From the NCBI GenBank assembly GCA_947475735.1, contig CANJLQ010000013.1, positions 1 to 64,000 on the forward strand: 64,000 bases of DNA, given 5' to 3'. Below the pieces are notes generated by a model. The model made no database searches and was not told the origin of the DNA. It was given only the letters and a program-made list of their open reading frames with translations. Position 1 is the first letter of the stretch, and the number at the start of each line of letters is the position of its first letter. This DNA comes from Caulobacteraceae bacterium. GTDB lineage: Bacteria; Pseudomonadota; Alphaproteobacteria; Caulobacterales; Caulobacteraceae. A program made the position numbers and the translations under genes. Positions 1 to 3,468 of this stretch are shown here, in pieces.

Positions 1-197
1 ATGGTGATCACCACCTCGGCGTCCTTGACGGCGTCCGCGACCGAGCTCGCCTTCCTGCATCCCGCCGACGCGGCCTTGTCCAGCGCCCCGGCCGACAGGT
101 CGAATGCCGCGACGGCGTGGCCGGCCTTGGCCTGATTGGCCGCCATGCCGCCGCCCATGTTTCCCAGGCCGATGAAGGCGATCTTGGTGGCGGTCAT
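1..197 (-). CDS. mmsB: 3-hydroxyisobutyrate dehydrogenase, N-terminal fragment
   Basis: Only the first 65 residues are present because the gene runs off the left edge. The fragment opens with a Rossmann dinucleotide-binding motif (GLGNMGGGMA) followed by FDLS, the typical start of the 3-hydroxyisobutyrate dehydrogenase branch of the beta-hydroxyacid dehydrogenases. This enzyme oxidises 3-hydroxyisobutyrate to methylmalonate semialdehyde in valine breakdown. A 3-hydroxyisobutyryl-CoA hydrolase, which catalyses the preceding step, lies about 2 kb upstream on the same strand and supports the assignment. The catalytic Lys and the C-terminal domain are outside the window, so a related enzyme such as tartronate semialdehyde reductase cannot be fully excluded. 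Confidence 0.82.
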   Translation of the reverse strand, partial: MTATKIAFIGLGNMGGGMAANQAKAGHAVAAFDLSAGALDKAASAGCRKASSVADAVKDAEVVIT

Positions 198-318
198 GTC
201 GGCGTCTCCCGGAAGCGTTTTGTGTTTCGCTCCGGTTAGCCCCTGGCCCGCTGAACCGCCAGACCCGTCAGGCCGGCTTCCTGAACCTCAGCATGAACTG
301 GCTGGTCCGGCCCCGGAT

Positions 319-1035
319 CTAGTCGTCGAAGACATTGGCGGTCAGCGGATCGGCGTCGTTCAGCAGAAGATCGCTCTCGGCCTCCAGCACGAAACCCGCG
401 GCCTCCACCTCGCGCCGCAGATCGGCGATGTCGATCCTGTGCAGGCTGTCGGCGACGCCCAGACCCGCGTCCGAAGCCGCCGCATGGTCGATGATGACAT
501 AGAGGCCGCCGGGCTTCAGGGCGGCGAACACAGCCGCGTTCACCCTGGCGGCGGTGTCCGCGGGGAAAGGCTGCAGATGCAGGTCGTGATAGTTCTGGGC
601 CGTGAACACGAGGTCCAGCCCGGTCGGGAACTCGGGTGCGCCGATCGGCGACCGGATGGCTGACACATTGTCGTTGGCCTCGTCGACGGCCGTCAGGCTT
701 TCACCGTAGCTGGCCTGAAAGCCGATGAACTCCGCCGGCTGCCATGCGACGACGTGACCCTGATCCCCTACGGCGCTCGCGAAGACCCGCGTGAAATAGC
801 CGCCGCCGATGATTATGTCGGCGATCCGCTGGCCGGGCTCGACCTCGGCGAAGGCCAGGGTCTCTGCGGTCTTGCGGGCCGCATCGCGCGCCCGGTCCGC
901 CTCGGGGCGAGCGGTGTCGGCCAGAACGGGGGCGTAGCCCCCCGTCTCCTGGCCCGGCGGCGCGAAGGCGGCTGTCGCGAACAAAAGAGCCGCCGAGGCG
1001 ACCAGGACAAGGGACCGGTTGAACGCGACGCGCAT
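319..1035 (-). CDS. exported class I methyltransferase-like protein, tail removed by an in-frame TAG
   Basis: This is a 238-residue protein with an N-terminal hydrophobic signal (LVLVASAALLFATAAFA). A methyltransferase-like fold follows: ADIIIGGGYFTR stands at the glycine-rich loop and LKPGGLYVIIDH at the post-strand-4 region. It is paralogous to the lipoprotein encoded at 1472-2242. The annotated product ends NVFDD, but after the TAG the same frame continues IRGRTSQFMLRFRKPA to a TGA at 268. The paralogue reads IRGRSDQFVYRFRKPG at the same place, so the last 16 residues look lost by a nonsense change. SAM is cytoplasmic, so the catalytic role of an exported methyltransferase fold is unclear. 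The substrate is unknown. Confidence 0.8.
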   Translation of the reverse strand: MRVAFNRSLVLVASAALLFATAAFAPPGQETGGYAPVLADTARPEADRARDAARKTAETLAFAEVEPGQRIADIIIGGGYFTRVFASAVGDQGHVVAWQPAEFIGFQASYGESLTAVDEANDNVSAIRSPIGAPEFPTGLDLVFTAQNYHDLHLQPFPADTAARVNAAVFAALKPGGLYVIIDHAAASDAGLGVADSLHRIDIADLRREVEAAGFVLEAESDLLLNDADPLTANVFDD

Positions 1036-1163
1036 CGAAACCTCCTCGAACGCCCCAGTGGCGTGACACGCTTCTACGTCCTCGCCCGGCTCTGGTCAGG
1101 AACTCATGGCGAACCTGTCGCCGAATTCATGGTATCGCTACGCCGCAGAACAGGAGAGACGCC

Positions 1164-1475
1164 GTGGCCGCCCAACTCGTCGTGACCTACCGCACGCCTT
1201 CCGATATCGCGGCGTTCGACCGACATTATCGCGACATCCATGCGCGCCTAGCCCACCAGATCCCGGGCCTGCGTCGCTTCGAGACCACCACTGGGCCGGT
1301 CATGACGCCGGAGGGCCCCTCCGACGTCCATCTGATCGCTATCCTGCACTTCGACGATCTGGCGGCCATCGCAGCAGCTTTCGCCAGTGCCGAGGGGCAG
1401 GCCGCCGCCGCCGACGTGGCCACCTTCGCGACCGGCGGTGCCTCGATGCTGATGTATGAAACGACGGCGGCTTAG
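1164..1475 (+). CDS. EthD-family small protein
   Basis: The gene encodes 103 residues from a GTG start placed 5-6 bases after an AGGAGAG ribosome-binding site. The dimeric alpha/beta-barrel (EthD/DUF3291-like) signature is visible in the early FDRHYRDIHARLA segment and the central H-rich/acidic strand (DVHLIAILHFDD). EthD proteins were first met in ethyl tert-butyl ether degradation clusters, but most members have no defined activity. It lies between two paralogous exported methyltransferase-like genes on the opposite strand. Its stop codon overlaps the stop codon of the second one, so the two genes converge tail to tail. The function cannot be specified further. Confidence 0.75.
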   Translation: MAAQLVVTYRTPSDIAAFDRHYRDIHARLAHQIPGLRRFETTTGPVMTPEGPSDVHLIAILHFDDLAAIAAAFASAEGQAAAADVATFATGGASMLMYETTAA

Positions 1476-2242
1476 CCCGGCTTTCTGAAGCGATAGACGA
1501 ACTGGTCGCTACGGCCCCGGATCGTCTCGTCGAAAACCGACAGGCTGTGGTCGTCGGCGGGGTTGCGCACGGCGTCGCTCTCACCCTCGAAAACGAAGCC
1601 CGCCGCCTCGACCTGCGCCCGCAAGGCCGAACCCTCAATTCGGTGCAGGGTGCCGACCACGCTGATCCCCGCCCCCGCCGCCGCCTGGTGATCCAGGATG
1701 ACATACAGCCCGCCCGGCTTCAGCGCGCGGAACACGGCCGCGTTCATGGCGGCCACATCGACGCCGAACCGGTCGATGACGAAGTCGTGGTACTCCTGGC
1801 CCATCCAGACCACGTCCAGCGGCTCGGGGAAGGACAGGTCCTCCAGGGCGCCCGTCACTCGCGTGACGTTGGGATAGTCGGACGCGAGGGTGTCGCCGAA
1901 CGCGTTCTCCCGCGCCGCCGTCTGGTTCGGCACGAAGGCGTAGACGCGCCCTTCGGACCCCACGGCCCGCGCGAACAGTCGGGTGAAATAGCCTTCCTCC
2001 GGCCGAACATCGGCGATGCGTTCGCCGCCTTCGATGCCGATGAAGGCCAGCATGTCCGCCGGCTTGCGCAGCGGATCACGCGCCACTTCGGCGGCGGGCC
2101 GCAGCGGATCGGCGATCGCCTGGGCGTAGTCGGCGACGGCCCCAGCCGACGCGGCAGACTCCGACGGCGACTGGACGGTATCCATCGATCCGCACCCCAG
2201 CAGGGCGAAGGCGGAAACGGCGAGCAGCAGCGACTTCGACAT
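1472..2242 (-). CDS. methyltransferase-like lipoprotein
   Basis: This is a 256-residue paralogue of the protein at 319-1035. It begins with a lipoprotein signal ending in the lipobox LLGC, so it is probably anchored to a membrane facing the periplasm. The region equivalent to the SAM-binding loop reads ADVRPEEGYFTRLFA, without the glycine cluster of a working class I methyltransferase, whereas LKPGGLYVILDH is kept. The C-terminus (IRGRSDQFVYRFRKPG) is intact and shows what the paralogue has lost. It probably arose by duplication. The degenerate loop suggests a binding or structural role rather than methyl transfer, but that is inference. Confidence 0.8.
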   Translation of the reverse strand: MSKSLLLAVSAFALLGCGSMDTVQSPSESAASAGAVADYAQAIADPLRPAAEVARDPLRKPADMLAFIGIEGGERIADVRPEEGYFTRLFARAVGSEGRVYAFVPNQTAARENAFGDTLASDYPNVTRVTGALEDLSFPEPLDVVWMGQEYHDFVIDRFGVDVAAMNAAVFRALKPGGLYVILDHQAAAGAGISVVGTLHRIEGSALRAQVEAAGFVFEGESDAVRNPADDHSLSVFDETIRGRSDQFVYRFRKPG

Positions 2243-2304
2243 GGAGAATCCTCGATCGGCGACCGTTCGAGTCTACGCGCCAGAACTGACGCGGATGCAA
2301 GCCG

Positions 2305-3351
2305 TCAGACCAGCGGCGTCCATTCCTCGTCCGGGGCAAGCGGCGCGAACAGGGCGTCCAGATCGGCGTCCGACACGTCCGCCAGCGTCGAAGGCGACCA
2401 CTGCGGCGCATTGTCCTTGTCCACGATCACGGCCCGGACTCCTTCCTGGAAGTCGTGGGTGCGGACCACCCGGCCGCCCAGCCGATACTCCATCGCCATG
2501 ACGTCGGCGAAGTCGGTCATCGCCCGGCCCGCCCGGAGCTGGCGCAGGGTCACCTTAAGCGATTGAGGGGATTTCGTCTTCAGGATGGCCAGCTGAGCCG
2601 ACGCCCACTCCGACCCGTCCTGCTCCAGGGCTTCGAAGATCGCCTCCACTGTCGGGTGGGCGAACAGCCGGTCGATCGCCTCGCGATACGGTGCCAGCGG
2701 CGCCGGGCCGGGATCGTGGGCCAGCCGAAGCGCCGCCTGCCCCGGGTCCTCGCCGTCCAGCAAGGCGTGCTTGAAGTCCGCCAGCGCCTCCGACGCGACG
2801 ACGAAGTTGTGGATGCCCAAGGCGTAGGTGTCCGCCGCCTTCAGCCGCGCTCCGGTCAGCGCCAGCCAGGTCCCGGTCTCGCCCGGCAACCGGGGCAGGA
2901 ACCAGCCGCCGCCGACATCGGGGAACAGGCCGATCCCGGTCTCGGGCATCGCATAGGTCGTGCGTTCGGTGGCCACCCGAACCGTCGCCGGCTCCGAGAC
3001 GCCTACGCCGCCCCCCATAACGATGCCGTCCACGATCGCCACGATGGGCTTGGGATAGACGAACATCAGATGGTTCAGCCGGTACTCGGCATGGAAGAAG
3101 GCACGGGCCTCGACGGCGTCGCACGCCCCGCTTTCGGCGATCATGCGGATGTCTCCGCCCGCGCAGAAGCCTCGCTCGCCACTGTGGTCGATCAGGACGG
3201 ACGTCACACCGGCATCGTCACGCCATTCCATAAGCGCCTGCGTCATCGCCTCGCACATCGCCAGGTTCAGCGCGTGCAGAGCCCGGGGTCGATCCAGTGT
3301 GATCCGACCGATTCCGTGGTCGATGCGGGTCTGGACTTCGGGCTGGCTCAT
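2305..3351 (-). CDS. 3-hydroxyisobutyryl-CoA hydrolase (enoyl-CoA hydratase family)
   Basis: The 348-residue crotonase-fold enzyme hydrolyses 3-hydroxyisobutyryl-CoA in valine catabolism. The evidence is the RITLDRPRALHALN opening, the oxyanion-hole segment RGFCAGGDIRM, the long MGGGVGVS helix and the PETGIGLFPDVGG block that separates this branch from true hydratases. The ATG at 3351 fits the family's usual N-terminus. The ORF track extends to a TTG at 3438, which would add 29 unconserved residues. The product feeds mmsB at the left edge of the window. The reading of pathway context is solid. Substrate preference within the family is inferred from motif similarity. Confidence 0.85.
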   Translation of the reverse strand: MSQPEVQTRIDHGIGRITLDRPRALHALNLAMCEAMTQALMEWRDDAGVTSVLIDHSGERGFCAGGDIRMIAESGACDAVEARAFFHAEYRLNHLMFVYPKPIVAIVDGIVMGGGVGVSEPATVRVATERTTYAMPETGIGLFPDVGGGWFLPRLPGETGTWLALTGARLKAADTYALGIHNFVVASEALADFKHALLDGEDPGQAALRLAHDPGPAPLAPYREAIDRLFAHPTVEAIFEALEQDGSEWASAQLAILKTKSPQSLKVTLRQLRAGRAMTDFADVMAMEYRLGGRVVRTHDFQEGVRAVIVDKDNAPQWSPSTLADVSDADLDALFAPLAPDEEWTPLV

Positions 3352-3468
3352 CGTCGGCGCATAGCCCGGCGCGCGACCCAAAGAAAAGCCCGACGCGAAC
3401 GCCGGGCTGAAAAGGTTGGTGATGGTGGGTGTCCTCAAAGGAAGACGCCCTTTGGTCGGTCGATTTGG

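Follow-up and report, generated by a model that had tools for sequence, protein, structure and literature searches.

In class I SAM-dependent methyltransferases, the last strand completes the sheet of the fold. The predicted fold of the gene described here, gene A, is like that of several members of this class (PDB 3dh0 and the arsenite methyltransferases 5evj and 4fr0), at an identity of only 15-20% and with no curated family past its cut-off. The coding frame of A is interrupted near its 3' end by a TAG, for which two kinds of precedent exist. Many prokaryotic in-frame stops have low dN/dS and are mostly short-lived, and the authors who described them assume that most are without functional recoding (Belinky et al. 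2021, PMC7918605). The stop in A is like these in being in frame with low dN/dS around it. In contrast, the published stops are orthologous and found in related genomes, whereas that of A is private to one genome, so that conservation of the stop cannot be invoked. The second precedent is a recent nonsense mutation that turns a bacterial paralogue into an incipient pseudogene. Gene A shares with such cases a single in-frame stop, intact close relatives, continued conservation of the rest of the gene and of the downstream frame, and an adjoining intact paralogue, B. Unlike in a typical incipient pseudogene, the stop is very late, with 16 codons lost, so residual function of A is possible, and the base sits near a contig end.

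The window, that is, the whole stretch of DNA analysed (positions 1-64000), opens contig C13 and covers 64 kb of it; C13 is one of 26 contigs in a draft Brevundimonas genome. The features of its first part are as follows.

1..149, no strand: identical to the end of contig C10; position 1 of the window is a contig end
From 197, minus strand: dehydrogenase, running across the contig join, intact, 302 aa
268..270, minus strand: distal TGA; nearly all orthologues end at the same position
271..318, minus strand: former coding tail of A, IRGRTSQFMLRFRKPA, with the last beta strand (residues 246-252, read-through frame), from translation, alignment and AlphaFold2
319..321, minus strand: premature TAG; a sense codon in 68/68 aligned relatives
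319..1035, minus strand: gene A, methyltransferase-like, 238 aa, TAG-ended, with an N-terminal signal-like helix (translation); predicted class I methyltransferase fold (model and Foldseek)
1164..1475, plus strand: EthD family reductase-like ORF between A and B (TIGR02118, E=4e-25)
1472..2242, minus strand: paralogue B, intact (translation)
2305-3438, minus strand: 3-hydroxyisobutyryl-CoA hydrolase-like gene

The gene order in the window is thus hydrolase-like gene, B, EthD-family ORF, A, dehydrogenase, and B, A and the dehydrogenase occur together in the same order in the nearest relative. The dehydrogenase presumably resembles 3-hydroxyisobutyrate dehydrogenases. The methyltransferase-like pair and the EthD-family ORF are flanked by genes resembling those of valine degradation (window 1-3438).

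Translation of 268-1035 on the minus strand gives a protein ending in TANVFDD, a stop (TAG, 319-321), IRGRTSQFMLRFRKPA and a second stop (TGA, 268-270). This bears out the earlier note, which had described an in-frame TAG with a readable tail beyond it, running to a TGA. The C-terminus of B reads SVFDETIRGRSDQFVYRFRKPG and then a stop; the intact end of B is also given as VFDETIRGRSDQFVYRFRKPG. The note's count of 11/16 tail residues identical between A and B was right, and the chance of at least 11/16 identities is ~6e-10 at 7% per site. The note had also set DET of B against a D and the stop of A. This needs a small correction: D-D-stop of A faces D-E-T of B, and the stop therefore stands opposite the Thr of B rather than its Glu. 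Five tail residues (Q246, F247, F251, K253 and P254) do not vary across 40 aligned family members, among them B, and the rest of A aligns without a frameshift. The word CTAG, one copy of which is created by the premature stop, is depleted in window 1-64000, with 35 seen against 84 expected from a Markov estimate.

To place the stop among relatives, we aligned 68 distinct relatives of A, from the genus and a broader collection, across the site. The named relatives recovered were mostly Brevundimonas. All 68 have a sense codon at the position of the TAG (Ser in 47, Ala in 14, Gly in 3, Thr in 3 and Asp in 1), which rules out a natural shorter end common to orthologues, and the commonest codon, found in 35/68, is one substitution from TAG. 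Nearly all of them terminate where the distal TGA stands or only a few residues away, and in three the tail IRGRTSQFMLRFRKPA is present letter for letter in the same frame. The pattern that would have spoken against a lost tail, namely orthologues all ending at NVFDD with no similarity downstream, was not seen in the relatives. The genus search covered 131 genomes, and presence of A-like genes was counted over 101 genus genomes. An A-like gene (at least 56% identity) was found in 43/101, the source genome counted; the inner stop occurs only in the source genome, and all 42 other A-like genes lack one. The stop is young, judged from these alignments, and private to the source genome.

The age of the stop was further examined from substitution patterns. 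Compared with the nearest relative, at 80% DNA identity, the body of A has a dN/dS of ~0.15, and A departs from the family at 2/67 highly conserved columns, within a range of 0-8 among relatives. Its terminal branch (0.13) is ordinary. The low dN/dS upstream of the stop and the few departures suggest that A was functional until recently. The tail has no amino-acid change private to the source genome, whereas neutral drift along the full length of the branch should have produced ~13 nonsynonymous changes. This limits neutral drift of the tail to at most ~23% of the branch. The figure is rough, since synonymous sites approach saturation and the pair distance was assumed to divide equally between the two lineages. 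The claim that the tail was coding until recently is hence well founded: all aligned relatives read through, no private change has accumulated and, by the rough estimate, any neutral drift would span about a quarter of the branch or less. A long-standing pseudogene is ruled out by the same unaltered tail and the normal constraint on the body.

To examine what loss of the tail would do, we compared models of the two forms. AlphaFold2 predicted strands at 216-221 and 246-252 in the read-through frame (pLDDT 91.5). Both were absent from the model of the 238-residue form as encoded, which still had a confident core (pLDDT 90.8). Foldseek matched the read-through model to many class I SAM-dependent methyltransferases at E about 1e-10, and a profile search with A found 3dh0 at E=2.5e-11. 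Against Pfam, no family passed the cut-off, and NCBIfam gave only weak sub-cut-off matches. The glycine-rich IGGGYFTR loop of A, a putative SAM-dependent methyltransferase, aligns with motif I. Read through, A is thus predicted to adopt the Rossmann-like seven-stranded fold, and the encoded product would lack its last strand. Since the lost strand completes the sheet of the class I fold, the 238-residue product is probably misfolded or inactive in the light of these models; AlphaFold2 gives no stability measure, and at pLDDT 90.8 the truncated form could retain activity.

Collectively, these results make a recent, late nonsense substitution in A, now an incipient pseudogene beside intact B, the probable explanation. 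A single recent substitution in this lineage would have created the TAG from a codon for Ser, or a similar residue, close to the 3' end. Translation would end there and yield a 238-residue protein without the final beta strand of the methyltransferase sheet, and this product, probably misfolded or inactive, would make A an incipient pseudogene. The loss may be tolerated either by dispensability of A in the genus or by cover from B. Dispensability appears likely from sequence comparison, because ~58/101 genus genomes show no A-like match, only matches at ~50% identity or lower, and it fits the tolerance of a nonsense mutation. We infer that the base is real, that function has been lost and that A is redundant with B. 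The case against the nonsense mutation is that the base is known from one draft assembly, near a contig end.

A is patchy across the genus, with ~43/101 genomes carrying an A-like gene and the others only B-like or weaker matches. This suggests that the paralogue has been lost or transferred repeatedly.

The main rival to a nonsense mutation, itself rather unlikely, is that the TAG arose by mistake in base calling or assembly, close to the end of a draft contig, and that the real gene is intact. The stop lies only 318 bases from the contig end. C13 and C10 are adjacent, and the 149 bases that they share occur nowhere else in the assembly. A repeat therefore does not account for the break, which may mark a place of poor coverage. 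An error would also agree with the functional appearance of everything else about A (dN/dS and conserved columns) and with the creation by the substitution of the rare word CTAG. On the other hand, the stop falls within unique sequence, 170 bases past the overlap, the frameshift-free alignment of the rest of A and the intact dehydrogenase across the join argue against local error, and completeness of the genome is 99.99% and contamination 1.3%.

Readthrough is far less probable than either. In this explanation the TAG would be read through at some level, yielding two isoforms of which the longer is the active enzyme. The conserved tail is consistent with it, and so is the occurrence across prokaryotes of short-lived in-frame stops under purifying selection (PMC7918605). 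However, a recent mutation predicts a conserved tail equally well, and the stop itself is conserved in no relative. Within the 64-kb window, in which stop usage was counted, TAG ends 17/52 genes picked by codon composition, and the extensions of the 16 other TAG-ended genes are unrelated, non-conserved and, by inspection, random in appearance. A search for a CUA-anticodon (suppressor) tRNA found none among the 39 tRNA genes detected in the draft genome, which may miss a few. The suggestion in the earlier note that the tail might be reached by readthrough therefore gained no positive support: the stop is unconserved, TAG is an ordinary terminator in the window, and the tRNAs detected include none with anticodon CUA. 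Genome-wide recoding of TAG is rejected on the 16 other TAG-ended genes of the window, with their unrelated extensions, and on the same tRNA result. More doubtful again is a real TAG that is partly read through to give truncated and full-length methyltransferase, the late stop serving as a dosage switch. Least probable of all is a functional 238-residue protein for which loss of the tail was neutral or adaptive: the confident core of the truncated model agrees with it, but the tail holds the five invariant residues, its loss removes two strands from the model, and 0/68 relatives are truncated at the site.

A conserved tail past a stop is thus by itself no argument for readthrough. For annotation, gene A should be flagged as truncated, the functional end in relatives lying at 268-270. 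The locus has little general significance, and it offers a clean snapshot either of a dispensable paralogue very soon after a nonsense mutation, the explanation we favour, or of an error in a draft assembly close to the end of a contig.
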